Shown: positions 3,342-18,254 of the stretch, piece after piece
Layout of the letters: each line of letters starts with the position of its first letter
Position numbering within the stretch: the first letter of the stretch is position 1
Assembly: GCA_007120055.1 (NCBI GenBank)
Contig: SKOL01000770.1
Coordinates: forward strand, 1 to 21,814
Reading direction: 5' to 3'
Source: Anaerobacillus sp.
GTDB lineage: Bacteria; Bacillota; Bacilli; Bacillales_H; Anaerobacillaceae
Length of the DNA stretch: 21,814 nt
The notes under the pieces: generated by a model
The model's input: only the letters and a program-made list of their open reading frames with translations
The model's database searches: none
Told to the model about the DNA's origin: nothing
Position numbers and translations under genes: made by a program

Positions 3342-6300
3342 TTAAGCTAATATTCTTCTACGTTTCACAATGAAAGCGATTCCGCTTAGTATAATTAACA
3401 TTAAACCTACAAATAACAAATTAAAACTATTTGTCGCTGTATCTGGTAATTTCTTATTCATATCTTCTTCATCAGTTTCTGTTCCATTACGTGATTGATC
3501 TGATCCCGGCGCCTCACCTGATTGATCTTCTCCTGGCTTTTCGCCTGATTGATCTTCTCCTGGCTCTTCGCCTGATTGATCATCTCCTGGATCTTCACCT
3601 GATTGATCATCTCCTGGATCTTCACCTGATTGATCTTCTCCTGGATCTTCACTAAATTCAAATACTCCATAAGTAGAGAAATGAGTAACTGTTGCAGTTA
3701 TCGTTTTAGTTTCAGTATCCATAACTCCACCAATTAATTCCCATTCGTTTGTTGTTTCATTGTAGTAGTATATAGCTACCTCTTCGAAACCTTCTTCATA
3801 TCCTAACGTTAACTCAAATTCTCCATCAAATTCTTCACCTAACTGAAGATCCACTTTAATAACTTCTCCAGCCTTATTACGACCTTGAGGAGTATTTGTT
3901 ACTTCTTCGACTAACTCAATTGCAATGGTTGTATTTACTGGTAAGTTCGCTGGCATCTTAATTGAAGCGTTACTTCCACTTAAATTAACTCGGTTATTCT
4001 TTGCTACTGTAGTTGGAACATTCGGTAATACAGTTTCTTCACCTTCTTGATCAGCTGGTTCAGTTGATGCTACTTCCTCAACTTCTACCAATCTTACATT
4101 GTCGATTAGAATTGTGTATGGCACAGCCAATTCTTCATCTGTACCATCTCTACCTAATCCAAACAGGAAGTTATAATTACCAGTTTCAGTCACTTCAATG
4201 ATAAGTTCATATGTTTCCATAGTATCACCAACAGCAAATTCCTGAATACCTGTTCCTGAATCCGTTAATTCTACTTTTACATTACGTTCGTGGTCTGATT
4301 TCATATCAAAGGTAATTTTATATGTTCCACTTGGCACTTCAACATTTTGTGATAATTGAATTTGCCACCAAGCCCAACCGCCTTGTTTAATCTCAGCATT
4401 TAATACACCATCAATAACAGAGAAGTCAGCAAGACCTGCCCAAGCTTCAAAATCTCCTTGGTTATGAATATTCCAAAGTAATGGATTATCCGCATTACCA
4501 AATTCATTTGTGGTCTCGAAAGAACCATCAATGATCAAGTTTCGCCCTATTTCTTTCCACTCTTTTTCAGATGGATCAGATGGATCAGATGGTTCTGTTG
4601 GATCAGTTGGTTGTTGACTATCTTCATTACCAATTAGAACTTCCCTTGCACCTTTTACTTCTAATCTAACATTATCAATATAGATATCGTGAGTATCCGA
4701 GATAACGCCGCCTACTGAACCTAGTAAGAATTTCAAAGCATTTACGTCAGTTGTATCGATATTAAATTCATATTTAAATGTTTGTGTCTCATTAGTTAAA
4801 GCAATTTCTTCTGAGAAATAACGGTGGTAACTTGCATTTTCGACAATTAGTTCAATCTTTCTGTCAATAGAAGCACTTGCATCAAATTCAACTACGTATG
4901 TTAATCCTTCTTCTAATGTAAGATCTTCTTGGAAAAACTGAACATGCCATGTATCATTTCCAGTATGTTCTACAGAAATTTTAGCTTCTCCATTTTCTTC
5001 AGCAAAAGATGCACTTGACTGTCCTTCCCAAACACCTTGGACATGATTATGCCATCCTTCTAATCCTTTTGCAAAATCTCCGTTAGTTAATGGGAAATAT
5101 CTTTCCCTTTCACCTTTCACTTCTAGTTTTACATTATCAATAAACACTTCATGACTGCCAATGTCTTCTGAACCAGCAATTTTTCCTAATAAATACTTTA
5201 GGTCAACTGTATCATCAGCATTCATTTCAAATTCGAACGTGAATGTTTCCATCGTATTTGTAAGCTCAACAATATCTGAAAAATACCGATTATATGATGC
5301 GTTTTCTACAACTACTTCTACATTTCTATCTACTGTAGATTTAGCGTCAAACTCTAATACATATGTTTGGTTCTCTGAAAACCTCATACCATTTTGCATT
5401 AATAGTACATGCCACGGCTCCCAGCCTTCAGTTGTAATAGAAGCTTTTAGTTCGCCCCCAACTACTTCAATGGTAGCACCTGACGTACCTGGCTCATGGT
5501 CTCCTTGAATATGTTTTTCCCAAGCTTCTAACCCTTTTGAGAAGTCACCGTTTTTAAGTGGAAATGCTTGTTCGAGAGTTACTCCTGCATTATTATTAGT
5601 GGTTCGAACCATTTTTACATTATCAATGACTACATCATTATTGTTTCCTCCTAAGAAAAAGACTAGTTGTCCCTCGATGTCTTCTACATTCGGCATAACA
5701 AATGACATTTCTTTTTCTTCCATTGATGTCGATAATGAAATCACTTGATTGTCGGAATAATTTACGTCCCCATTTTTGCTTAGCAAAGCAACTTCGATAT
5801 CTCTGTCTGCTGTTGCTTTCGCATCAAACGTTAACTTATACTCATCATTCTGAAGAAGGTTCATTCCTTTTTGTACTAGTTTAATAGATTCAACACTAGA
5901 ACCACCATCAGTGATTGATACTTCAAGTTCTCTTACTTCTGGATCAACAGAAGCGGTTGCGTCTGCACCGTCAGTTATTAAATTCCAGAATGTCATCCGA
6001 TCCATATCACCTTGATCAAATGTTCCATTATATACATGATTACCATTTCGCAATGGACGTTTCGGAGCATCTTCGTTATAAGGGTCTACTGCATCAACCT
6101 CTTCAACTACGACATTACCAATCCATACAGGGTTTGAGTTCAGCCCTAAGTTAAACTCAAGACGTGCACGTGGATCTGTATCATGTTGCATTTGGAAGAT
6201 CATTTCATATGTTTCGACTTCATTCGTTAATTGATAGTCCATATTTGGTGAATAAGCCGTCCAACCAAGATCTGCTCCACCGCCAATTTTCACATTCATA

Positions 6301-7541
6301 CCACGGTTAGTATTGGACTTAGCATCAAAACTTAATTTGTACCATCTACCTGTCCCCATCGTGACGTTTTGAATTAATTGGATTGAGTATGTTTGGTTTC
6401 CAGCTTGTGAAATGTCAACCTTCGCAAATAGTGTATCATTTAACATATCGACTGAAACTGAACCTGTTCCATTAAACTCTTCTAAGTTTAAAAAATTCCA
6501 ATAATCATAGTCCCAGTTATTAGCGACATCATCGTTCGTTCTTAAAACTGTGAAACCATTATCATAGTTTGTATCATATACATGATTGCCATCAATTGCT
6601 TCTTTTGCATCAGCAGGTAATTCTACTGGCTCAAACACTGGTTCTACAGGTTCTTTATAGTCTCTACCAGTTAATTCATAAACGCGAACATAATCTACAA
6701 CCATTTTTCCGGGGAATGGTGTTGTATCATCAGGATTTCCACCATACCAGCCACCAATAGCTAGATTTAAAATTAAGTAAAACTCTTGATCAAATGGAGC
6801 TGGATAAGCAAACTTTGCAGGGTTACCAGTACTAGTCGTTGACCAATTGTTTAACGTTTGATACAAATCATCATTGACATACCAACGAATTTCACCTGGC
6901 TCCCACTCAACTGCGTAAACATTCATATCAGTTACGTCACGGCCTTCCGGGAAGTAATAATCTTTCGCTGTGTACGTATTATTTGGCCATTGCCCACCGT
7001 AGTGAATCGCACCACCAATATGATCTGGAGTTCCTCCAGCGTTTTCCATAATATCGATTTCACCAGAAGCTGCCCAACCACCATAAACATCATCCTCTGG
7101 CATCATCCAAAATGCAGGCCAATATCCTTGCCCTTCAGGTAGGGACATTCTCGCTTCGAAACGACCATACTTTTGGCTAAACTTTCCTTGGGTATGAACC
7201 TTTCCGGAAGTATAATGATATGTTCCTGTACTATCAGTAACCGTTTCCTCACGGCCTTCAAGGATTAACTTTCCATTCTCAACTCTCACATTATCTTCTT
7301 GATAAGACTGTAATTCCTCATTGCCCCATCCAGGGATAAATGTGCCATCCTCTTGAAAAAAACCATTTCCTATATCACGTGACCATTTAGATTCGTCTAA
7401 ATCTTCGCCTTCAAACTCATCCGACCAAACTAGCGTCCATTCATCATTCACGTTAGAGCTATCCTCCGCTTTAACAATCATACTGAAGTTGGAAAAAACT
7501 AACAGAAAAACTAATAACATTTTTAACCTTTTTTTTACCAT
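3342..7541 (-). CDS. Cell-wall-anchored multimodular GH16 laminarinase
   Basis: An extracellular endo-beta-1,3-glucanase of about 1399 residues. I chose the ATG for MVKKRLKMLLVFLL because GGAGGG lies 9 nt upstream; an in-frame TTG at 7577 would add 12 residues but overlaps that site. Residues 1-25 are a signal peptide. GH16 spans about 34-290, with SGEIDIMENAG carrying the catalytic Glu161 and Glu166, the laminarinase-type motif. Five CBM4/9-like beta-sandwich modules follow (about 318-482, 496-646, 660-810, 816-964, 1000-1155), each ending near IDNVRL or similar. Modules three and four are close duplicates. A ZU5-like beta domain (about 1172-1296), six acidic 9-residue repeats, a sorting signal LPDTA (1365-1369), a membrane segment and KRRR complete it. 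LPDTA matches the motif reported for B. subtilis sortase YhcS substrates. Module boundaries are estimates. It has its own operator upstream (7666-7681). Confidence 0.93.
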   Translation of the reverse strand: MVKKRLKMLLVFLLVFSNFSMIVKAEDSSNVNDEWTLVWSDEFEGEDLDESKWSRDIGNGFFQEDGTFIPGWGNEELQSYQEDNVRVENGKLILEGREETVTDSTGTYHYTSGKVHTQGKFSQKYGRFEARMSLPEGQGYWPAFWMMPEDDVYGGWAASGEIDIMENAGGTPDHIGGAIHYGGQWPNNTYTAKDYYFPEGRDVTDMNVYAVEWEPGEIRWYVNDDLYQTLNNWSTTSTGNPAKFAYPAPFDQEFYLILNLAIGGWYGGNPDDTTPFPGKMVVDYVRVYELTGRDYKEPVEPVFEPVELPADAKEAIDGNHVYDTNYDNGFTVLRTNDDVANNWDYDYWNFLNLEEFNGTGSVSVDMLNDTLFAKVDISQAGNQTYSIQLIQNVTMGTGRWYKLSFDAKSNTNRGMNVKIGGGADLGWTAYSPNMDYQLTNEVETYEMIFQMQHDTDPRARLEFNLGLNSNPVWIGNVVVEEVDAVDPYNEDAPKRPLRNGNHVYNGTFDQGDMDRMTFWNLITDGADATASVDPEVRELEVSITDGGSSVESIKLVQKGMNLLQNDEYKLTFDAKATADRDIEVALLSKNGDVNYSDNQVISLSTSMEEKEMSFVMPNVEDIEGQLVFFLGGNNNDVVIDNVKMVRTTNNNAGVTLEQAFPLKNGDFSKGLEAWEKHIQGDHEPGTSGATIEVVGGELKASITTEGWEPWHVLLMQNGMRFSENQTYVLEFDAKSTVDRNVEVVVENASYNRYFSDIVELTNTMETFTFEFEMNADDTVDLKYLLGKIAGSEDIGSHEVFIDNVKLEVKGERERYFPLTNGDFAKGLEGWHNHVQGVWEGQSSASFAEENGEAKISVEHTGNDTWHVQFFQEDLTLEEGLTYVVEFDASASIDRKIELIVENASYHRYFSEEIALTNETQTFKYEFNIDTTDVNALKFLLGSVGGVISDTHDIYIDNVRLEVKGAREVLIGNEDSQQPTDPTEPSDPSDPSEKEWKEIGRNLIIDGSFETTNEFGNADNPLLWNIHNQGDFEAWAGLADFSVIDGVLNAEIKQGGWAWWQIQLSQNVEVPSGTYKITFDMKSDHERNVKVELTDSGTGIQEFAVGDTMETYELIIEVTETGNYNFLFGLGRDGTDEELAVPYTILIDNVRLVEVEEVASTEPADQEGEETVLPNVPTTVAKNNRVNLSGSNASIKMPANLPVNTTIAIELVEEVTNTPQGRNKAGEVIKVDLQLGEEFDGEFELTLGYEEGFEEVAIYYYNETTNEWELIGGVMDTETKTITATVTHFSTYGVFEFSEDPGEDQSGEDPGDDQSGEDPGDDQSGEEPGEDQSGEKPGEDQSGEAPGSDQSRNGTETDEEDMNKKLPDTATNSFNLLFVGLMLIILSGIAFIVKRRRILA
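3486..3647 (-). repeat. Six 27-bp repeats encoding an acidic cell-wall linker
   Basis: Six consecutive 27-bp units encode DPGEDQSGE, DPGDDQSGE (twice), EPGEDQSGE, KPGEDQSGE and a diverged APGSDQSRN. They sit between the last folded domain of the laminarinase and its LPDTA sorting signal, where wall-spanning spacers are normally found. The close DNA identity between units suggests copy number can change by slippage. Confidence 0.9.
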
Positions 7542-7665
7542 TATTAACATCCCTCCATATTTTAAAAATATAAGCAAGGTCTAAATTAAGAATGATTGTT
7601 CTAAATCACCCCCTTAACTAAACTCTCTAAATCGTTATGTGAGTGAGCATCATAGATGTTAAAAA

Positions 7666-7681
7666 CCGAAAGCGCTTTCGG
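7666..7681. promoter_or_regulatory. Operator upstream of the laminarinase gene
   Basis: A perfect 16-bp palindrome CCGAAAGCGCTTTCGG, extended by AA/TT to 20 bp (7664-7683), lies about 125 bp before the laminarinase start. On the minus strand a TATGAT follows about 10 bp later and a weak TACATA precedes it, so the true promoter is unclear. It separates control of the laminarinase from the upstream operon. Predicted target of the local LacI-family protein; CcpA is the alternative. Confidence 0.75.
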
Positions 7682-7697
7682 TTTATGTAAGATATGA

Positions 7698-7720
7698 GGT
7701 AGGTATCGTTACTACCTACC
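7698..7720 (-). terminator. Possible terminator after the phosphorylase
   Basis: An 8-bp inverted repeat GGTAGGTA/TACCTACC (7698-7705 and 7713-7720) with a 7-nt loop lies 24-46 bp beyond the phosphorylase stop. No T run follows on the minus strand, so termination would be weak or factor-dependent. It sits just before the laminarinase operator, consistent with a boundary between transcription units. Confidence 0.4.
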
Positions 7721-7743
7721 CCATGTCATCCAGTTTAAAAAAG

Positions 7744-9612
7744 CTAATCCAATTTAACTGTCATTTTTGTTACTTTCCCATTTCTAATATCCTCAACATG
7801 CGTACCTTTAATTGTTTCACCATAAAGAACCAAAGATTCTCCATCGCTATAGGTTAGTGTGTACTCTACAGGTAAGACTGCATCATCTCCGTATGTGTTT
7901 AACCTTTTTGGATTAAGATACTTTATTTCACAAGTTCCTAAAAACGTACATGTTACTTCACCATTTTCTGCAAACATCCAGCTTGGAAGGGATGGAGATA
8001 GTTGACAAACAAGCTCTCCTTTTTCCAACTTAAATGGTTTTCCACCTGTCATCATGACAAACCACATATTCATAAACTCAATCGTTGAACCACTTAACCT
8101 GGATACGAATCCGCGTCCATGTAACTTTGAATTAGGATTAGCACTACTTGCAATGAAAGAGCTATTCTCTAACGTACTTCTTCCATACACTTGTGGATCT
8201 AAAAATGGGATTAACGCATTTTTCATATCATCATAAAATTCTTCTGCTAACCCTGCTTTCAGTGTCGCTAATAAATACTTATATTCCATATGCAAGAAGA
8301 TTGATTCGTTTTCTAACCATCCAGGTGTGAAGGCGTTAGCACGTCCAAGTTCATTAGGCTCTTCTTGAATCGACATAGATGTCTTGTACATACCAAGCTT
8401 GCTATCATAAATATCAGAAGCACGAACAGCATCATAAATCTTTTTCGCTTCTTGCCCGTCTTCTGTCAATTTCAATGATTTAACAATCCCCTCAAGAAAC
8501 GGTGTTACTGCTTTCGATGTCCACTCTAGCTCTGAAATCGCTGGTACTCCATTATCTAAACAGTTCTTCGGCTCAAAGTAGAAGTAAGTCGGTACAAGTT
8601 CTCCATTATACGAACGAACTCGCTCAATCCCCTTTTCTACTCTTTTCTTTAGGGGGACGCATATTTCTTTTATTTGAACTAACGTGTAGTGTACTTCTTC
8701 ACCACTAATCCCTTCGTAGATCGAATCGCGGTAGTTCTCTCTTAGGCTAGAAACCTCATTCCAATACTCGTCTTCACTAATTGTTAAAGCTTGGACTTTC
8801 TTGATTGCGTTAACTACACCCAGTAGAAAATCAGCGGCTTCGATTGGTAGTGAAACTTGTTCTTCTCCATCTACCCCTAAAAGAATGTCAAATAGACGTT
8901 TCACTTCAAACAGCTCAGAGGTACTAGCGCCAATCATCCCTGGCAAACCATTTAGAGAATCGTTCCATCCTGGTTTATCTGCTTCCATTTCGATACCTAA
9001 TCCCATGGGGGCTAGTGTCGAGGTTTTCACAAGACCGAGAAGGAATAGCTTAGAATAAAGTGTTGTTTTATAAACATCACCTTGTCCGCGCTTCTCTTTT
9101 ACCCACATTACGCCATTATTTTGGGCAGCTTCATGCTCTTTTTGTTTATCTTCATAAATCGCACCGTACTGACGTAACTTCCCATTGTTAATGACGTATT
9201 TATCCACACGTTTCTTCACTCTAGCTGGGCTCTCAAAGTATTGATAATCTTTGTTGAAAAATAATTCTTCCTTTTTATCTGGATAGATCGCTAAGTAACT
9301 TTCGATTAAATCAAGATTATATGTCCAATGGTCCATCCAGTATCCTTCACCGAACTCCGCTTGGAACAAATGCTCTGAAACACTCAAGACTGCCGTTAAA
9401 AACTCATCGAAAGAGGTCGACAATGTTACTGTTTCATCCTCTAAGAAGTGCTTAAGCTCTCCTGGTGTATAAGAGGATTTGAAGAAGTTACTTACTTTTT
9501 CTTCAGATTCTTTTGTCACGTATAGTGTGAAATCAAACGAATTAGCATCGAGTGAGAACCTAACACCTTTGACTCCAAGTGGATTGTATCCATCTAATTG
9601 AATCAAGTTCAT
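7744..9612 (-). CDS. Phosphorylase C-terminal part (downstream of the TAA)
   Basis: This open stretch of 622 codons from the first ATG after the stop carries YWMDHWTYNLDL and GWNDSLNGLPG, so it holds most of the (alpha/alpha)6 catalytic domain and the C-terminal beta domain. I see no ribosome binding site at useful distance before this ATG (the preceding bases are AAAACTATTT), so efficient independent translation is unlikely. The frame is undamaged throughout, so little time has passed since the stop arose, if it is real. Confidence 0.6.
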   Translation of the reverse strand: MNLIQLDGYNPLGVKGVRFSLDANSFDFTLYVTKESEEKVSNFFKSSYTPGELKHFLEDETVTLSTSFDEFLTAVLSVSEHLFQAEFGEGYWMDHWTYNLDLIESYLAIYPDKKEELFFNKDYQYFESPARVKKRVDKYVINNGKLRQYGAIYEDKQKEHEAAQNNGVMWVKEKRGQGDVYKTTLYSKLFLLGLVKTSTLAPMGLGIEMEADKPGWNDSLNGLPGMIGASTSELFEVKRLFDILLGVDGEEQVSLPIEAADFLLGVVNAIKKVQALTISEDEYWNEVSSLRENYRDSIYEGISGEEVHYTLVQIKEICVPLKKRVEKGIERVRSYNGELVPTYFYFEPKNCLDNGVPAISELEWTSKAVTPFLEGIVKSLKLTEDGQEAKKIYDAVRASDIYDSKLGMYKTSMSIQEEPNELGRANAFTPGWLENESIFLHMEYKYLLATLKAGLAEEFYDDMKNALIPFLDPQVYGRSTLENSSFIASSANPNSKLHGRGFVSRLSGSTIEFMNMWFVMMTGGKPFKLEKGELVCQLSPSLPSWMFAENGEVTCTFLGTCEIKYLNPKRLNTYGDDAVLPVEYTLTYSDGESLVLYGETIKGTHVEDIRNGKVTKMTVKLD

Positions 9613-9687
9613 AAATAGTTTTACATTGTAGTCCTTTACTCGTGGCTCAAAAAAGACATCACACCGTCGATTTTGGTTTATATCTCG

Positions 9688-10911
9688 TTAGTTACCGTTC
9701 CCTTGAGAATAATAAGTAGGACTAAGTGAGAAGAAGTTGTAATCTCTTTCTAAGTCACCATGCTTACGTGAATAGAGATAATATAAACTTTGTTTATCTT
9801 CTTTCTCGAATACAAACGGGAATCCACCACGTAAGCCATTGTCTAAATAACTTTGGCGACTATAGGCATCAAAGAGAGGTTGTCCCGTTTCACATTTAAT
9901 TGGTGCCGTAATTTGATCCGTAATCGTTGCTGCGATTTCTTGCATCGTTCGTAAACGAGGAAGGGTTATTTGCTCTTTCACGTAAGAATTGACGGTTGCA
10001 AGATTACTTGCATGACCAACGACCGTGTACAATTCTAATTCTTCATTTGGTGCTAGTGCCACTTTCGTTGCAGTAAAACCACATGACACTTTATTCGTTG
10101 TTTGTGCTTCTTCTGCGACTAACGTTTCGATACTTTCATTGATGAAGTTTTGAGGCAACTGTAGCGTTGTATCTGTTCCAAAAATGATATCACGATCAAC
10201 AATGGGTTTTGCTAACTTTTCCTCACCACGGTACGAGATCAGACTCATAAAGAAGTTTCCTTGAGGTACCTCCTTCACTTCAGCCGTATCTTCCATACTT
10301 CCTCTCAACTTATAATAAGGAATGTTATTTTCTAGATTATAGACATCAAACCAACTCTTAATCGTATTTCCTAATTCCTTATAGGCCGCATTTGGAACAC
10401 CACTAGGAAAGACAGATGGTAGTCCATCTAACAACTCAATATGCTTTGGCTTATCAGAAATGTTTTTGAACTTCACATGGCGAACGAGACCAGCTACAGG
10501 TGACTCAGGGAGAATAAAATACTCTACTGTCATTTTAATGCCATTCTCTTGATTGACATATTCCAGAGCAAGTTTATTTTCTGAAATCTCCATTGTTTCC
10601 ATATGGTTGGCGTTATGTTGTGATGAGAATGGTTCTAAAAATGTCGTCTCGCCATTCTCAGTAATCTTAATAAATGTTCGAAACCCTTGAACTTGTACAA
10701 GTTGATACGATTTATCTGCAGGTAAAAATTCCATAATCGCATGGTCTTTATCTTGAACGCCGAAGCTCGCAATTCCTTGGCCGCGGTTCACATAAAAAAC
10801 CCACATTGGAATTCCATCTACCCCAGCAATTCCTGGTAAAAAACTAGAGAAGGTAGGGCGTTGTTGAAAATTTTGAATTTGAAAGTTTTGATTTTCTTTT
10901 AGTAAATACAT
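9688..10911 (-). CDS. Phosphorylase N-terminal part (upstream of the TAA)
   Basis: This 407-residue piece holds the N-terminal beta-sandwich region, including GIAGVDGIPMWVFYVNRGQG and a linker, and ends at YYSQGNGN just before the catalytic domain. It has a good GGAGG site before its ATG and is 24 bp after the GH30 gene, so it is surely translated. On its own it lacks the catalytic Asp and should be inactive. Confidence 0.65.
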   Translation of the reverse strand: MYLLKENQNFQIQNFQQRPTFSSFLPGIAGVDGIPMWVFYVNRGQGIASFGVQDKDHAIMEFLPADKSYQLVQVQGFRTFIKITENGETTFLEPFSSQHNANHMETMEISENKLALEYVNQENGIKMTVEYFILPESPVAGLVRHVKFKNISDKPKHIELLDGLPSVFPSGVPNAAYKELGNTIKSWFDVYNLENNIPYYKLRGSMEDTAEVKEVPQGNFFMSLISYRGEEKLAKPIVDRDIIFGTDTTLQLPQNFINESIETLVAEEAQTTNKVSCGFTATKVALAPNEELELYTVVGHASNLATVNSYVKEQITLPRLRTMQEIAATITDQITAPIKCETGQPLFDAYSRQSYLDNGLRGGFPFVFEKEDKQSLYYLYSRKHGDLERDYNFFSLSPTYYSQGNGN

Positions 10912-10934
10912 GTTAGTCCTCCAAATTTTCTTGA

Positions 10935-12275
10935 TTATATGATCAATGTTGCAATTGCGCGTCGATCTACCTCAATTTCAACATAGTTATCTTCAATTTG
11001 AATGGTAAAAGATTTCATTTCTTCCGTTTCATTTAATACGACTAATACAATCTCACCATTTTCGTTTTTAAACGCTGTCGCAGAGAGATCCTTATTACTC
11101 GTTTCAAGCCCTATTCTTTTTGCTCTTGGCTTAATGAATTTACTAAAATGACCAATATAATAATAAGAACTATTAAAATGAATTTCATCTGTTTTTGTAT
11201 CCGCGATGATAGGTGCATCACAATAATTACCGACATGATTCGGTCCACCGTTCTCATCCAACACTAAGTTCCAATCAAGAAACCCTTCTAACCAGTTGTT
11301 CATGTCACCAATGATATTTCTTGCATATCTTTCACCTGTATGCCAAGCACCCAATTGTACGCCACCTTCAATACAGCCTTCTGTAAAAATGAGATGTTTA
11401 TCTGGAAATGCTTCATGAACCATTGAAAGATTTTCAAAGTCTTCAGAGACATACCAATGGTTACCTGTGCCCCAAACATATTTTGCTGCTTCCGGGTCTG
11501 AAAGAATTGTTGTCGCTCGCTCAACAATCACATCACGATTATGATCCCAAATCACGATCTTTTTATCGCTAAGTCCCCTCTTATCAAAAATAGGTCCTAA
11601 ATGATTTTTAATAAAGTCACGTTCTTCTTCTGCTGTGTATCGACAAGAATCCCACGTCTGCGTTGCTTCAGGTTCGTTTTGGATCGTTACACCCCAAATC
11701 GGAATCTCTTCCTTTTCCATAGCCTCAATGTATTTCACATAATACATTGCCCAAAGATCACGATACTCTTCCTTTAGCTTTCCACCATTATTCATTTCAC
11801 CATTCGTCTTCATCCAAGCTGGTGGACTCCAAGGCGACGATAAAATCGTTAATGCTTCCCCTGCTTCTTCCACAGCAGCCTTAATAAATGGAATGACATA
11901 TTTCGTTTCTCTTTTAATAGAAAATGAAGCTAGTTCTGTGTCTTCCTCTTCAACATAAGTATAGTTTTCGAGTGAAAAATCACAGCTATTAATATGCGTT
12001 CTTCCAAGTGTATAACCCAATCCACTGTCTTTATTGTAGTACGCACGTATTACATTGCTTCGATGCTTGGAAGATACTTTTGAAAGAGTATACGTTGCAG
12101 CCTCGGTAAACGCACCGCCAAACCCCATCCATTGTTGATATTCTAATTCCGGATCAACCCGTAGAATATTATTACTAGTAGCAGTACCTTTTTTAAAACT
12201 AAAGGAACCTTTATCCTGCCACTTTTCTTGATCATATTTAGAAGTTTGAATAAGTCGAATGCATCTCTCCATCAT
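10935..12275 (-). CDS. GH30 glycoside hydrolase, intracellular
   Basis: A 446-residue GH30 enzyme related to glucosylceramidases and beta-1,6-glucanases. WMGFGGAFTEAA near residue 50 is the family's first barrel strand; SSPWSPPAWMKT lies near 147; TIQNEPEA gives the acid/base Glu201; HLIFTEGC gives the nucleophile Glu299. The C-terminal stretch (about 385-446) is the expected beta-sandwich. There is no signal peptide, so it acts on imported oligosaccharides. With a laminarinase and GH1 enzyme beside it, removing beta-1,6-linked glucose from laminarin fragments is a reasonable inference; beta-glucosidase or beta-xylosidase activity cannot be ruled out. The ATG pair follows AGAGGGGGA. It is 44 bp after the GH1 gene in the same operon. 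Confidence 0.88.
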   Translation of the reverse strand: MMERCIRLIQTSKYDQEKWQDKGSFSFKKGTATSNNILRVDPELEYQQWMGFGGAFTEAATYTLSKVSSKHRSNVIRAYYNKDSGLGYTLGRTHINSCDFSLENYTYVEEEDTELASFSIKRETKYVIPFIKAAVEEAGEALTILSSPWSPPAWMKTNGEMNNGGKLKEEYRDLWAMYYVKYIEAMEKEEIPIWGVTIQNEPEATQTWDSCRYTAEEERDFIKNHLGPIFDKRGLSDKKIVIWDHNRDVIVERATTILSDPEAAKYVWGTGNHWYVSEDFENLSMVHEAFPDKHLIFTEGCIEGGVQLGAWHTGERYARNIIGDMNNWLEGFLDWNLVLDENGGPNHVGNYCDAPIIADTKTDEIHFNSSYYYIGHFSKFIKPRAKRIGLETSNKDLSATAFKNENGEIVLVVLNETEEMKSFTIQIEDNYVEIEVDRRAIATLII

Positions 12276-12319
12276 AGTAATCCCCCTCTAATTCTTTGAA
12301 AAACTAACGACTTTGTCGT

Positions 12320-13654
12320 TTATAATTTTCTAGCTTTCACGATTTCTTGATATCGTTTTGCACTATCTTTCCAATATCTTTCTTGAGTCTCGAAATCAAC
12401 ATAGATCATACCAAAGCGCTTCTCATATCCGAATGCCCATTCAAAGTTATCAAAAAGCGACCACAAGAAGTACCCAGCGACATTCATTCCTTCTTCATTT
12501 AACTCTTGAACTGCTGCAATATGTTTTTCAATATAGTCTGTGCGTTCTTTGTCATGAACAGATCCATCAGCTTCTAGAACATCATCATAAGCTGCACCAT
12601 TTTCAGTAATATAAATTGGTAAATCTGTATAATCACGTCTTAAGCGACGAATTAATTCTTTAAACTCATTTGGCGATACATCCCAACCCATCGCTGTTTT
12701 CGGATAATCTGAATGAGCACCCGTATATAGTGCATAATCTGTACTTGTAAATTCAACAAGCGCTCGATTATAGTAGTTTATTCCAAAGAAATCACAATCA
12801 ACTGAAATTGTTTCTAAGTCGCCTGACTTGATGAAGCTAAAATCGTGAACTTGTTTTGAGAAAAGATTCACCATATCGATAGGATAGCTTCCTTTAAAAA
12901 TTGGATCTAGGAACCAACGATTTGTATATCCGTCAAAATTATTATGAGCAATTTGATCGTTAAACGAATTAGTAGCTGCATAAGCAGGGGATAAGTTTAA
13001 CGTAATTCCGATAGGTGTCTTAGAATTTAATTTACCTTTTAACAGTTTTACAGCTTCTCCATGAGAAAGTAGAATATGATGCGCTGCTTTTAATCCTTCT
13101 TCAATATTTTTATGTCCTGGTGCATGGTGACCAGCATGGTAACTCAAGAAACTAGCACACCACGGCTCATTTTGAGTAATCCAAGAATAAACATGTTCAT
13201 CTAATTCTTCAAAGCACTTTTCGGCAAATTGTAGAAACCACGAAACAGAGTCTCGATTAACCCATCCACCTTTTTCTTGAGCCCACATTGGTAAATCCCA
13301 GTGATAAAGAGTAGCCATCGGTTTTATACCACACTCTACCAATCTAGCGATTAGTGCTTTGTAAAACTTCATACCCTCTTCGTTATATACACCTTGTTCA
13401 GGAAAAATCCTTGGCCATGCAATTGAAAAACGGTATGAGTCCACACCTAGCTCTTTAATAATCTGAACATCTTCTTCAAATCTATGATAATGGTCACAAG
13501 CAACATCTCCTGTGTCACCATTAACTACTTTGCCAGGGGTTCTAGAAAATGTATCCCATATTGATAAAGAACGTCCACCTTCGTTATAAGCCCCTTCAAT
13601 TTGATACGATGATGTGGCTGTTCCGAAAATAAAATCTTTTGTAAACTGCGACAT
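12320..13654 (-). CDS. GH1 family beta-glucosidase
   Basis: A 444-residue cytoplasmic beta-glucosidase of the BglA type, likely cleaving laminaribiose and longer beta-1,3-gluco-oligosaccharides from the non-reducing end. It starts FIFGTATSSYQIEGA, the GH1 N-terminal signature. TQNEPWC gives acid/base Glu163 and YITENGAAYD the nucleophile Glu351. FLWSLFDNFEWAFGYEKRFG near the C-terminus forms the aglycone and glucose site. I chose the ATG at 13654 because GAGGTG lies 8 nt before it; the GTG at 13663 overlaps that site. The absence of a phospho-binding pattern and the ABC importer context favour a non-phosphorylated substrate rather than 6-phospho-glucoside. It is 19 bp from the permease gene. 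Confidence 0.9.
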   Translation of the reverse strand: MSQFTKDFIFGTATSSYQIEGAYNEGGRSLSIWDTFSRTPGKVVNGDTGDVACDHYHRFEEDVQIIKELGVDSYRFSIAWPRIFPEQGVYNEEGMKFYKALIARLVECGIKPMATLYHWDLPMWAQEKGGWVNRDSVSWFLQFAEKCFEELDEHVYSWITQNEPWCASFLSYHAGHHAPGHKNIEEGLKAAHHILLSHGEAVKLLKGKLNSKTPIGITLNLSPAYAATNSFNDQIAHNNFDGYTNRWFLDPIFKGSYPIDMVNLFSKQVHDFSFIKSGDLETISVDCDFFGINYYNRALVEFTSTDYALYTGAHSDYPKTAMGWDVSPNEFKELIRRLRRDYTDLPIYITENGAAYDDVLEADGSVHDKERTDYIEKHIAAVQELNEEGMNVAGYFLWSLFDNFEWAFGYEKRFGMIYVDFETQERYWKDSAKRYQEIVKARKL

Positions 13655-13673
13655 TAATAACACACCTCTTCTT

Positions 13674-14513
13674 TTATTCTTTAACTGCTCCTGCTGAAAT
13701 ACTGCTGATAATATATTTAGATAGGAATAAAAATGCTATCATAATTGGTACTACCGAAATCGCAATCCCTAAATACATTGCACCTAGGTTTTGAGCTACT
13801 TGTGATCCTCTCAAAGCCCCCATCATGACTGGTAATGTGTATTTTTCTGGACTAAATAACACAACTAGTGGCAAAATATAGTTATTCCACGAGCCAATAA
13901 ATGTAAAGATCGACATCGTTGCAACTGCTGGCATCATAATCGGAAAGCCAATTTTGTGAAAAATCTTTATTTCTCCTGCACCGTCAATTCTCGCTGCTTC
14001 TAATAATGAACTATGCAACGTTGAAGAAAGGAATTGTCGTAAGAAAAACACAATAAATGGTGATGCGATTGGCGGAATAATTAATGGGATATAAGTATCA
14101 AGAAAACCAAAGGTTCTGATCAGATCATAAAAACCAATCAATCCTAATTGTCCTGGTACCATCATTAATACTAAAACTGAAACAAATAAGAAGTTACTGC
14201 CTTTAAACTTATACACAGAAAATCCATAAGCCGTTAGCGCTGAGAAATATGAACTTAATAAAGTTACACATACCGCAATAAATAAACTATTAGCGAAACC
14301 TCTCCATAAATTCATATAACTGATCAAGACCTGATAGTTATCTATTAAAGCTTGACCTGGGAATAACGTAAAACCATGCCTTAAGATATCTGCATTCGAT
14401 CGAGTTGCATTAATGATCATCATATAAAATGGTATAAAGCTAATAATTACAAGTAGAATTAATAAGGCGTAAAGGATCGCCTTTACTATTTTAGTTTTAT
14501 TCAAAACCCTCAC
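13674..14513 (-). CDS. ABC sugar importer permease, MalG type
   Basis: A 279-residue inner permease subunit with about six membrane helices. The EAA loop that contacts the ATPase is visible as EAARIDGAGEIKIFHKIGFP near residue 190. The sequence begins with a GTG that overlaps the TGA of the preceding permease gene, so the two are probably translationally coupled. With its MalF-type partner and the upstream lipoprotein it forms a CUT1-type oligosaccharide importer. No ATPase gene occurs in the window. The ending SSISAGAVKE is typical of MalG proteins. Confidence 0.92.
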   Translation of the reverse strand: MRVLNKTKIVKAILYALLILLVIISFIPFYMMIINATRSNADILRHGFTLFPGQALIDNYQVLISYMNLWRGFANSLFIAVCVTLLSSYFSALTAYGFSVYKFKGSNFLFVSVLVLMMVPGQLGLIGFYDLIRTFGFLDTYIPLIIPPIASPFIVFFLRQFLSSTLHSSLLEAARIDGAGEIKIFHKIGFPIMMPAVATMSIFTFIGSWNNYILPLVVLFSPEKYTLPVMMGALRGSQVAQNLGAMYLGIAISVVPIMIAFLFLSKYIISSISAGAVKE

Positions 14514-15400
14514 CCCTCTTTTACACTTTTTCGATACATGGCTTTAAAGGTTATTAAAGAGAAAATAACTGTAATCACAAATAACCCATAGGCAACAGCT
14601 GCAGCATACCCGTAGTTGTTAAAACGAAATGCCTGATTGTATAAATATAAAACCATTGTATTTAAAGAACCTTGCGGAGACCCCGTTCCATCTGTAATCA
14701 ACATAGGAAGGTCAAAAATTTGCAAACCTCCGATTAGAGAAGTAATTAATACATACAATAAAATTGGTTTCAACAATGGAATTGTTACTCTAGTAAACAT
14801 TTGAAAACGATTGGCACCATCGATAAGTGCCGCTTCAAAATAGTCCTTAGAAATTCCTGAGATACCGGCCATTAAAATAATGAACGTATGTCCAAACCAC
14901 ATCCAAGCACCAATTAAGGCAACTGACCAACGCGCTGTTGTTGGACTATTCAACCAATTTATAGGTTGAGAGATCAAACCAAGGTCGAGTAATAAATGGT
15001 TAATGGTTCCATGATGCCAACCTAGTAAAATGCTAAATAATAAAGCGACCGAGGCAATCGTAATCAAATTAGGTAAATAAAATAAGGCCCTAAAAAATCC
15101 TAACCCTTTCATATTCAAACGGATATCAGAGAATAAAATAGCTAATAAAAGAGCTATACCAAGTTGAAAGAAAAAGTTAATTCCCCAAATATACATCGTA
15201 TTAAAAAAGGCTTGCAAAAAGTAGGTATCAGTAATAAGCCTTGAATAGTTTGCTAAACCTATAAATTCCGGACTACCCATGCCAGAATAACTAGTAAAGC
15301 TATAATAAAATGTTAAAAGAATTGGGTAGATAGTAAAAGTAATGAAAACGATAAAGAAAGGTAAAATAAATAAGTAGCCATAATTATCAAGTTTTTTCAT
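14510..15400 (-). CDS. ABC sugar importer permease, MalF type
   Basis: A 296-residue membrane subunit of a CUT1-family importer with six predicted helices, the first at about residues 8-30 (LFILPFFIVFITFTIYPILL). The coupling loop EAALIDGANRFQMFTRVTIP is near residue 195. The ATG follows GGAAGG. It is 80 bp after the solute-binding-protein gene, with an inverted repeat in the gap that could lower its expression relative to the binding protein. Its stop overlaps the next permease start. Confidence 0.92.
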   Translation of the reverse strand: MKKLDNYGYLFILPFFIVFITFTIYPILLTFYYSFTSYSGMGSPEFIGLANYSRLITDTYFLQAFFNTMYIWGINFFFQLGIALLLAILFSDIRLNMKGLGFFRALFYLPNLITIASVALLFSILLGWHHGTINHLLLDLGLISQPINWLNSPTTARWSVALIGAWMWFGHTFIILMAGISGISKDYFEAALIDGANRFQMFTRVTIPLLKPILLYVLITSLIGGLQIFDLPMLITDGTGSPQGSLNTMVLYLYNQAFRFNNYGYAAAVAYGLFVITVIFSLITFKAMYRKSVKEG

Positions 15401-15426
15401 AATAAACCTTCCTTCTCCCTTCTTAA

Positions 15427-15467
15427 TTAATAAGAGGAGATAGCAAAAGAGCTTCCCCTCTTATTAA
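15427..15467 (-). promoter_or_regulatory. Stem-loop between binding-protein and permease genes
   Basis: TTAATAAGAGG (15427-15437) pairs with CCTCTTATTAA (15457-15467) across a 19-nt loop. It has no T run on the minus strand, so it is more likely a partial terminator or an RNA 3'-end protecting element than a full terminator. Such hairpins after binding-protein genes are known to give more binding protein than permease. Confidence 0.6.
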
Positions 15468-15480
15468 TAATAGTTAATCT

Positions 15481-16809
15481 TTATTGTTGATCTGGTGTTT
15501 TAATTTGTGGATAAGCGTTTCTAACTAAATTATAAAACTCTTGGATTGCTTCTTCTTTCGTTCTCGCACCTTCAATATACTCTTCGACCATGTTGCCAAA
15601 CATCCCATCAATTTGCTGATCATATCTTGTGACAAGACCAGGATTAATTGATTGAGCTTCTTCTAAAAAGAACGTGTAATTATTTTGCCCACCTAAGAAC
15701 GAGTCACTAAAATCATCTTTAATTTTATCCGTTACAGGAAGGTACGATAAAACATCTCCAGTATCTAGCGCCCAATCAGTTAAAAATTCTTCGTCATGAG
15801 TCATCATTTTTACGAATTCCCACGCTAATTCTTTTTTATCAGAATTACTATAGATACCTAACCATGTACCACCCCAGAAATAAGGGTTCGGTCCATTTGT
15901 CACAGCCCAATCTCCTACTGTTTCTTCAGTGTTTAACTTTAACACGCTGTGTAGACCCCAAGTCGGTAAAGCATAAGCAAATACTTCAACTTCGTTTGAA
16001 GCGTTCTCATCAACTGCATCCCAACCTGCATTATAATTAATTGGAGCATCCATAGCAGCAAACCATGCTGGAGACCACTCAGGTGCAAATGCTGTTAAAT
16101 CTTTTTCACGAAGCTCTTTTGCATAATCAAAATGATTGATACGTCCTTCAGACATGATTAATTCATTGTTTTCATTTACCCATGGTTGCGGATCTTCACC
16201 TTGTGCAAACCAACGAACAGCACCTTCATCAGGGAATAGACGATATCCAGCTGCCTTTAATTTCTCACCAACTTCAAATAATCCTTCCATAGTAGAAAGC
16301 ATTTCACCGATCGTATCAGGATCATCAGTACCTAATACTTCTTCTGCAATACTTCTACGATAAAAAATACCACCTGGTGTTGTTTGCCATGATAAAGCTT
16401 TCACTTCATCTTTAGAGTTACGACCTAATTCAAAAACATAATCTACAAAGTCACCTTTTATATCTTCAACATTGTACGGATCTTGTGAAAGTGTTTCCCA
16501 ATATTCTTGTTCAATCCAATCTTTAATGAATACTAACTCACCTGTAAAAATATCAGGTGCACCTTGTCCACTTTCTAATACTGGTCTTAAACGGGTAGGA
16601 TAGTCTTCGATTGGTACAATCGTTAACTCCACTTCAACATCGTGTCTTTCTTCAAAAACATCAATCGCACCTTGAAGTTCATCTGTAAATGACCAAATCG
16701 TTAATTTTTCTTTCTTGCTCGATGTTGACCCTTCCTCTGAATTGCCACCACATGCTACTAAACTAAAACTTAAAACAGAGACAAACAAAAACATTAACAT
16801 TTTTTTCAT
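15481..16809 (-). CDS. Lipoprotein sugar-binding protein of an ABC importer
   Basis: A 442-residue extracellular solute-binding protein of the MalE-like family 1. The start is the ATG at 16809, preceded by GGGGGA; the longest reading frame begins at 16893 but that part covers the promoter and operator. The signal peptide MKKMLMFLFVSVLSFSLVAC ends in a lipobox with Cys20, so it is anchored to the membrane lipid. The mature domain starts KEKLTIWSFTDELQG, typical of these proteins. It should bind beta-gluco-oligosaccharides, an inference from the neighbouring laminarinase, GH1 and GH30 genes. It is the first gene of the operon and sits directly behind the large operator array. Confidence 0.9.
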   Translation of the reverse strand: MKKMLMFLFVSVLSFSLVACGGNSEEGSTSSKKEKLTIWSFTDELQGAIDVFEERHDVEVELTIVPIEDYPTRLRPVLESGQGAPDIFTGELVFIKDWIEQEYWETLSQDPYNVEDIKGDFVDYVFELGRNSKDEVKALSWQTTPGGIFYRRSIAEEVLGTDDPDTIGEMLSTMEGLFEVGEKLKAAGYRLFPDEGAVRWFAQGEDPQPWVNENNELIMSEGRINHFDYAKELREKDLTAFAPEWSPAWFAAMDAPINYNAGWDAVDENASNEVEVFAYALPTWGLHSVLKLNTEETVGDWAVTNGPNPYFWGGTWLGIYSNSDKKELAWEFVKMMTHDEEFLTDWALDTGDVLSYLPVTDKIKDDFSDSFLGGQNNYTFFLEEAQSINPGLVTRYDQQIDGMFGNMVEEYIEGARTKEEAIQEFYNLVRNAYPQIKTPDQQ

Positions 16810-16855
16810 TTTCTTTCCCCCATCTCGTTTATTAATATTTGGCTTCATATATAAG

Positions 16856-16889
16856 ATTATACAGAAACCTTTATCCAAAGCGCTTTCGG
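16856..16889 (-). promoter_or_regulatory. Promoter and proximal operator of the transport operon
   Basis: A consensus -10 TATAAT (minus strand, 16856-16861) lies about 50 bp before the binding-protein start. The operator TCCAAAGCGCTTTCGG (16874-16889) covers the position of the -35, and no good -35 hexamer is visible there. Binding would block RNA polymerase directly. The weak -35 may mean an activator or the upstream sites matter. Confidence 0.7.
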
Positions 16890-17210
16890 ACATGTGATAA
16901 AAATACGTTAATTACCTTTACCACTAATCCAAAATGCTTTTGAATCCTTATTATTTTTTTCTAAAGCGCTTTCGGAAAGTTATATAAAAACTATTCAACT
17001 CTATTAACTTTCCACAATCGACTTTAGTACCCCAACGCCATTTCACCAAAGCGCTTTCGGAGTGTGCAAAAAAAACATTTACTCTATCAACTTTCCGTAT
17101 TCAACTTCAGTTCTAAAATCAATTTTACCAAAGCGCTTTCGGAAACGCAATATTTTTTTAATGTACTTAAACGTACATCACGAAAACCTAACTTCTCAAA
17201 GTACTTTCAG
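16874..17210. repeat. Tandem array of operators upstream of the transport operon
   Basis: Four strong copies of an AAAGCGCTTT-core palindrome lie at 16874-16889, 16960-16975, 17045-17060 and 17127-17142, plus a degenerate one at 17195-17210 (core AAAGTACTTT). Centre spacings are 86, 85, 82 and 68 bp. The second and third intervals also share sequence between operators: CTCTATTAACTTTCC (16999-17013) and CTCTATCAACTTTCC (17082-17096), so at least part arose by tandem duplication. A weaker look-alike (AAAATGCTTT core) is at 16928-16943. Most of the 428-bp gap between the regulator and binding-protein genes is filled by this array. Confidence 0.85.
17161..17178. promoter_or_regulatory. Inverted repeat ATGTAC-N6-GTACAT
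   Basis: A 6-bp inverted repeat with a 6-nt spacer lies between the fourth operator and the end of the regulator gene. It is a different sequence from the operator palindrome. A related string, GTACGAAACGTAC, occurs at 206-218 near the left end. It may be a second binding site or chance. Confidence 0.25.
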
Positions 17211-17241
17211 ATAAAGAGATAGCTGCTTCGTATCTCTTTAT
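17211..17241 (-). terminator. Inverted repeat overlapping the regulator stop codon
   Basis: A perfect 11-bp repeat (ATAAAGAGATA with TATCTCTTTAT, 9-nt loop) spans the TAA of the LacI-family gene. It is A/T-rich and not followed by T residues on the minus strand, so it is a poor intrinsic terminator; some readthrough from the regulator into the transport operon is possible. Confidence 0.4.
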
Positions 17242-18254
17242 CCAATTAAATTTTCTCTAGTTGATCCTCTAATAATTAATTCAACCGGGATTGTTATAGC
17301 TGAAAACACCTTATTGTTTTCATTAATTTGGCTTAAAAGTACTTTTGCAGCATTTTCACCTATTAAATCGGTATCTTGTCTAACTGTTGTTAATTTTGGA
17401 GTCATAAACCTAGCTAACTCAATATCATCAAATCCAATGATTGAAAAATCGTCTGGAACATTCAGTCCATAATCTTCAATGGCATTTATCGCACCAATTG
17501 CCATCATATCACCGCCAGCAAAAACAGCAGTTGGTCTCTCATTTAACTCTAGTAATCGTTTCATGCCTTTATATCCACCTTCGTAGGAGAAAAATCCCCC
17601 TTCAACGATATAAGAAGATGGTATATTTAACTCAAGTTTCTCTATAGCATGTTTAAAGCCTCTTAACCTCTCAATTCCAGCAAATGTACTTTTGTGTCCA
17701 CTAATATGGGCTATTTTTTGATGACCAAGAGAATGTAAATACTCTACTGCTTTTTCACTCCCGGAAAAATTATCACTGTACACGACACTTGACTTATTAC
17801 TGTGTAAGTCAATGACGACACTTGGAATTTTAGAGTCCATTAACTTCACAACTTCTTGATCATCATAATTCGAACAAACAATGATAATTCCATCAACACC
17901 ACGGTGTATAGCATGATCTAGGTAACTTTTCTTTTCTGAACCAATATTTTGACTTAAAAAGATAAGATCATAACCAATTTTTTCTACGCGCTGTTTAAAA
18001 CTTTGTATAACAGCACTAAAGAACGGGTGCTTGATCCCTACACCGAGATCCTCAATAAAGATAACTCCTAAAGTCCATGATTTCTTTGTCGTGAGCGAAC
18101 GTGCGATAGAGTTTGGGTAATACCCCATTTCCTCTACAGCTTCTAAAATGATTTTTTTCGTTTTTGCACTCACATCATGATAATCATTTAAAGCTCTAGA
18201 TACTGTCGTTATTGAAAAACCAGTTTTTTTCGCTATATCATAAATAGTAGCCAC
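17238..18254 (-). CDS. LacI/GalR-family transcriptional regulator
   Basis: A 338-residue DNA-binding regulator. The N-terminus ATIYDIAKKTGFSITTVSRA is the classical helix-turn-helix, followed by the hinge region around NSIARSLTT, then a two-lobed periplasmic-binding-like effector domain (about 60-332). It starts with GTG, behind GGAGG at 8 nt. There is no C-terminal heptad extension like that of E. coli LacI, so a dimer is expected. It is very probably the protein that binds the AAAGCGCTTT palindromes in this window, since two lie in its own promoter region. The effector is unknown; a laminari-oligosaccharide is the obvious candidate. It could repress the transport operon, laminarinase and chemoreceptor genes. 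Confidence 0.92.
   Translation of the reverse strand: MATIYDIAKKTGFSITTVSRALNDYHDVSAKTKKIILEAVEEMGYYPNSIARSLTTKKSWTLGVIFIEDLGVGIKHPFFSAVIQSFKQRVEKIGYDLIFLSQNIGSEKKSYLDHAIHRGVDGIIIVCSNYDDQEVVKLMDSKIPSVVIDLHSNKSSVVYSDNFSGSEKAVEYLHSLGHQKIAHISGHKSTFAGIERLRGFKHAIEKLELNIPSSYIVEGGFFSYEGGYKGMKRLLELNERPTAVFAGGDMMAIGAINAIEDYGLNVPDDFSIIGFDDIELARFMTPKLTTVRQDTDLIGENAAKVLLSQINENNKVFSAITIPVELIIRGSTRENLIG

Follow-up and report, generated by a model that had tools for sequence, protein, structure and literature searches.

An in-frame TAA codon in a predicted GH161 beta-1,3-glucan phosphorylase gene of a laminarin-type locus related to Anaerobacillus

Organization of the locus and position of the stop codon

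The stretch of DNA analyzed here (the window, 21,814 nucleotides) belongs to a contig that has its closest named relatives in Anaerobacillus. The window contains a locus with genes for an MCP, a LacI-type regulator, a substrate-binding protein, two permeases, GH1, GH30, GH161 and GH16 proteins, and the order of these genes is largely kept in relatives. The genes at 13674..18254 are taken here to encode the ABC permeases, the substrate-binding protein and the LacI-type regulator, and the MCP of the locus is likewise a presumed identity. The GH16 protein matched laminarinase structures and gave an LPXTG anchor score of 19.8 bits, just under the cut-off of 20, and the TTG start listed for its gene is probably not the true one. 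Shine-Dalgarno-like sequences were seen by eye at the starts of AKR1, AKR2, GH30, the first permease, LacI and GH161, and none was seen by eye at the start of the MCP gene. A laminarin locus described from Bacillus weihaiensis (PMC6484121) likewise has GH1, GH30, GH16 and an ABC transporter around GH161. Among open-licence papers, none was found on the GH161 gene of the window or on Anaerobacillus together with laminarin. The features of the locus are listed in Table 1.

Table 1. Positions of the GH161 gene segments, motifs and neighboring genes in the window
Feature	Position	Strand	Basis
GH16 laminarinase-type endoglucanase with CBM modules; next gene downstream	3342..7577	-	PF00722 and PF02018 over cut-off
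Downstream open stretch, 647 codons plus TAG: remaining (alpha/alpha)6 barrel, C-terminal domain, catalytic residues	7744..9687	-	
622-aa ORF starting at the first ATG beyond the TAA	7744..9612	-	
GWNDSLNG motif with putative catalytic Asp651 (codon 8961-8959)	8947..8970	-	Aligned to DWNDGL of 6ggy
RDINQNRR motif directly behind the stop	9664..9687	-	Arg-Asp matched by motif to sugar-binding residues in GH94-type phosphorylases; invariant in 40 sequences
TAA stop, codon 408 of the GH161 frame	9688..9690	-	Codon reading; column Tyr 76 / Phe 42 in 118 covering homologues
Upstream piece, 407 aa: beta-supersandwich, linker helices and probably the first catalytic-barrel helix	9691..10911	-	
GH30 glycosidase, intact; next gene upstream	10935..12275	-	Aligns with G010 over residues 2-446 of 446
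GH1 beta-glucosidase, intact	12320..13663	-	TIGR03356 over cut-off
Two ABC permeases, substrate-binding protein and LacI-type regulator (presumed)	13674..18254	-	ORFs; same order in relatives

The GH161 frame lies on the minus strand and consists of 407 open codons from an ATG at 10911, a TAA at 9690-9688 and 647 codons reaching to a TAG at 7746-7744. Around the stop the codons read GGG AAC GGT AAC TAA CGA GAT ATA AAC. Positions 9613-9690 hold the TAA plus exactly 25 codons ahead of the next ATG (9612), and none of these 25 codons is a start codon (ATG, GTG or TTG). The sequence-only reading had described two frames in phase with 25 open codons between them and more than 600 undamaged codons beyond the stop; the codon reading and the alignment with PDB 9h8v (below) agree with the former, and the 647 open codons bear out the latter. 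That the frame stays open while matching the family over more than 1000 codons is not a matter of chance. Among the 1055 codons counted in the frame, 399 are one base from a stop, so that a lone stop is cheap by chance. The ATG at 10911 is preceded by GGAGG. At the ATG at 9612 no ribosome-binding sequence occurs at the usual distance, the sequence AAGGA sitting 19 nt before it.

Family assignment and the residues beyond the stop

When the two pieces were searched separately, the upstream piece aligned to residues 2-387 of 9h8v (E 2.7e-98) and the downstream piece to residues 389-1033 (E 2.7e-154); thus the pieces stay in phase and leave out a single residue. The 9h8v entry was deposited as a cellobiose phosphorylase and is near-identical, over the aligned part, to 9qqk, a GH161 phosphorylase with beta-1,3-glucooligosaccharide. 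End-to-end matches of both pieces to 9qqk gave the same picture. A structure was predicted for the protein P0004, an intact relative from Anaerobacillus alkalilacustris (mean pLDDT 84.5). Its top structural matches were 9gy9, a bacterial beta-1,3-glucan phosphorylase of family GH161, and 9qqk (TM 0.89), followed by GH149 and GH94 enzymes. Profile searches found PF06165 in the upstream piece at 24.8 bits (cut-off 23) and PF17167 in the downstream stretch at 19.7 bits, under its cut-off of 27, and the GH149 equivalog model gave 64.5 and 65.6 bits against a cut-off of 1150. From the three families originally proposed (GH161, GH149 or GH94), the end-to-end alignments with solved structures single out GH161, and GH149 falls away with scores far below its cut-off. 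Judged by sequence, then, the interrupted gene is that of a GH161 beta-1,3-glucan phosphorylase.

GH94, GH149 and GH161 belong to one clan (PMC6484121). The GH94 and GH149 phosphorylases share the fold, and the catalytic Asp aligns with that of GH94, but their identity is far lower in the structural matches of the P0004 model (11-17% at ranks 3-31). The GH161 gene resembles PapP of Paenibacillus polymyxa, as described in PMC6484121, and the proteins of 9gy9, 9qqk and 9h8v in full-length sequence, fold and the motifs of the catalytic and sugar sites. It differs from these in that its frame, which would otherwise run continuously for about 1050 aa, is broken by the TAA at residue 408.

The column of the stop was examined in an alignment of the best 120 of 5881 homologues found, for which only the 7995 candidates with the most shared words had been scored. 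The 118 homologues covering it carry Tyr (76) or Phe (42), and the other two (P0001 and P0033) are C-terminal-only proteins. The codon was also surveyed in 36 loci, some of which represent the same genome twice. The motif was found in 35 of them, L025 being off pattern, and all 35 have a sense codon at that column (TAC in 16, TTC in 12 and TAT in 7). Tyr had been named as the expected residue, and this holds for most of the homologues, with Phe accepted as well. The column is aromatic in 118 of 118.

Three sets of functional residues, namely the putative catalytic Asp (D651), the Arg-Asp sugar pair (R409-D410) and the phosphate-site His (H874), were invariant in 40 sequences and are all encoded after the stop. 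Their roles were transferred, by motif and spacing, from the descriptions in PMC5501786 and PMC6484121, and Asp651 was aligned with the DWNDGL motif of the laminaribiose phosphorylase 6ggy. In THA_1941, a distant phosphorylase, PMC5501786 describes Arg393-Asp394 as potential sugar-binding sites and Asp625 as a potential catalytic residue, and places the beginning of the barrel at residue 328; by our mapping, R409-D410 and D651 would correspond to these residues. In the P0004 model the part equivalent to the upstream piece spans the beta-sandwich, the linker helices and apparently the first barrel helix (345-362), with low confidence in the loop just ahead of the stop column. The catalytic Asp thus lies beyond the stop, as the sequence-only reading had placed it, and because the stop precedes the catalytic residues the 407-aa product should be inactive, which was also anticipated there.

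Distribution, age and origin of the stop

In-frame stops were searched for in relatives at three levels, and none turned up. The order yielded 58 GH161 matches, spread over 57 of the 397 genomes surveyed; the class yielded 24 matching stretches in 22 of 398 genomes, of which 4 are shared with the order survey; and 7 genomes of the genus yielded 4 matches, all of them also part of the order survey. Intact GH161 orthologues occur in four of the seven genomes of the nearest genus, and the stop is specific to this lineage across the surveyed homologues, loci and genomes, as is typical of a nonsense pseudogene.

Selection was assessed from Nei-Gojobori distances with 300 bootstraps for four sequences, that of the window and those of the intact relatives L027, L031 and L032. 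For the half after the stop, the branch dN/dS was 0.110 for the window (95% bootstrap 0.078-0.154) and 0.091, 0.132 and 0.140 for the intact relatives; for the half before the stop, it was 0.055 for the window and 0.065, 0.084 and 0.076 for the relatives. Relaxed selection beyond the stop was therefore not seen in the branch dN/dS of the window against the three intact relatives. Under a simple two-rate mixture of constrained and neutral evolution, the neutral share of the window branch is at most about 7%, a rough bound because synonymous sites are strongly diverged (pairwise distances of about 0.6-1.6 among the four). As the downstream dN/dS is normal, either the stop arose recently compared with the divergence of the species or translation still sometimes reaches the downstream part.

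A protein close to the downstream part is known from a second contig. P0001, from a 21,826-nt ENA contig, has 622 aa and is identical to the window ORF from the ATG at 9612 except for Asn in place of Ser at residue 77; its cluster has two member sequences, and it carries no mark as the protein of the window itself. An intact gene on that contig should have been called as a protein of about 1055 aa, and we infer from the protein that the contig bears the same lesion. It may stem from the same sample as the window or from a linked one. The 407-aa N-terminal piece itself was not among the best 120 of 815 matches; with 92% identity to P0004 and 91% to P0003, it has probably been absorbed into a full-length 90% cluster hidden by the length limit.

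On this evidence, the most likely explanation by a good distance in our judgment is a recent nonsense substitution in a conserved aromatic codon of the GH161 gene, the enzyme being most likely lost. An error of assembly or sequencing, the organism itself having an unbroken gene with a sense codon there, is unlikely. A single wrong base would be enough to create the TAA, the remainder of the gene is intact, and the window, whose nearest record is an ENA contig, probably derives from a metagenome. Against this, the permeases, GH1, GH30, the substrate-binding protein and LacI each align, near full length and without a change of frame, to one or more relatives, and the contig of P0001 yields a 622-aa protein that begins at the same ATG and differs at residue 77, which makes a one-off assembly error less likely. 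The normal dN/dS beyond the stop would also be expected if the TAA were read through at some rate, by a programmed or leaky process giving a little full-length enzyme, and in-frame stops are described as widespread in bacteria and often under purifying selection (PMC7918605). Readthrough is nevertheless very improbable here. A stop at this column was found in none of the 118 covering homologues (from the best 120 of 5881) and in none of the 35 loci; RNA folding in three stretches that follow or span the stop did not depart from shuffled sequences (z 0.32, 0.52 and -0.41); no Rfam family reached its gathering score within 7700-13700; 8 of the 13 window genes end in TAA; and most in-frame stops are short-lived according to PMC7918605 itself. 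An altered genetic code was rejected on the same use of TAA as a terminator. Of the three origins that had been offered for the stop, a fresh nonsense mutation is thus the best supported, assembly error has lost ground to P0001, and programmed readthrough has gained no support, as the surveyed relatives do not share the stop, predicted RNA folding matches that of shuffles and no Rfam element was found.

Two further readings would give the stop a function. The two pieces might be made separately and assemble as an active phosphorylase, for both are intact, they jointly cover the enzyme minus one residue, and the C-terminal piece occurs on another contig (that of P0001) with one change. We regard this as scarcely credible. 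According to the P0004 model and the domain limits described for a relative in PMC5501786, the break falls within the barrel past the first helix and not at a domain border; the ATG at 9612 lies 75 nt beyond the stop and has no Shine-Dalgarno-like sequence at the usual distance; and a C-terminal piece started there would lack R409, D410, N412 to R416 and D418, which are invariant in 40 sequences. Promoter-like sites, moreover, occur in 7500-13700 at the rate of shuffled sequence (19 against 18.7). An internal promoter was rejected on this count, and two promoter-like sites shortly before the stop on the minus strand are no evidence at the shuffled rate. It is very unlikely, too, that the stop is a tolerated population-level allele, present in at least two contigs, in which rare readthrough or spontaneous reversion of the TAA lowers the output of GH161 and switches cells from phosphorolysis of imported laminarin oligosaccharides to their hydrolysis and back.

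The nonsense substitution has the look of a commonplace, recent loss of function and not of a new mechanism, and it fits the known pattern of short-lived bacterial in-frame stops as described in PMC7918605, with which it shares a single in-frame stop, an open frame downstream, visible purifying selection and restriction to one lineage. That study retained stops that two or more species have in common; the split described here, by contrast, appeared in the window alone and, as a protein, in the one close contig of P0001.

Probable consequences and gene breaks in related sequences

Translation of the interrupted gene would end after 407 residues, giving a product with the beta-sandwich domain, the linker and roughly one helix of the barrel. 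This product would lack the catalytic residues, and the cell most likely has no active enzyme. The GH1 beta-glucosidase, encoded intact in the same locus, would then act on imported beta-1,3-glucooligosaccharides, and a reliance on GH1 hydrolysis with loss of the energy saving of phosphorolysis, as originally suggested, is plausible. The case illustrates cleanly how a locus for glucan use can carry a young loss-of-function allele, and it cautions that a gene caller will report a phosphorylase truncated at its N terminus at this place. Its importance would be greater only if readthrough or population switching were demonstrated.

Several homologous fragments and genes showed breaks of their own. 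A breakage hotspot at the stop motif was considered, since L009 (below) seems to break close by and a number of N-terminal database fragments stop in this region, and was rejected, as the fragment ends had no peak at 408 in two tabulations. In the first 120 (BLAST), 17 ends fell at reference residues 400-439, 18 at 440-479 and 20 at 480-519, with a mild rise at 420-459 (28 of 120); in the multiple alignment of 166 fragments, the corresponding numbers were 19, 12 and 30. P0169 (407 aa) ends at the residue just ahead of the stop column, which a contig edge explains as well as a stop does. The N-terminal GH161 proteins P0271, P0273 and P0274 (from 3, 9 and 7 contigs, respectively) have frameshifted-looking tails soon after QNRRCD, as if one broken allele recurred across samples. 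Five other fragments (P0130, P0146, P0157, P0198 and P0213) end in peptides such as IGRA.., SLIHI and CLLYTSDAADE, which we take to be sequencing-adapter read-through.

Frameshifts were observed in two GH161 genes. In G042, one of the 58 matches of the order survey, a frameshift near residue 328 (L044 2771-2805) leaves ORFs of 331 aa and 755 aa overlapping by 35 nt. In L009, a Bacillus metagenome assembly with about 6-fold coverage according to its title, an apparent extra T in a run of seven T (5000-5006) shifts the frame about thirteen codons past the stop column. Both look the same as sequencing error would, and may be no different from it. Two more GH161 genes (G606:C51:4211-7663 and G716:C88:248220-251603) each matched in two stretches that lie within a single open frame, and have additional sequence near model position 683.

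Neighboring genes were broken in some relatives as well. The GH30 gene was present in two of the seven genus genomes, whole in G010 and as a remnant in A. alkalilacustris, where the copy beside GH161 (L001 3225-3750; G001:C1:525954-526491) has residues 1-267 unmatched and a frame change near 371. The substrate-binding protein gene of G009 (L045 2237-3518) carries two one-base deletions about 500 nt apart, which may be sequencing errors. No such break was found in the genes aligned from the G005 and G010 loci. The breaks, few as they are, are consistent with a locus that cells can at times do without. Outside the GH161 gene, two of the seven genus genomes have a GH94-type domain that scores over the Pfam cut-off, and some relatives thus possess other phosphorylases.
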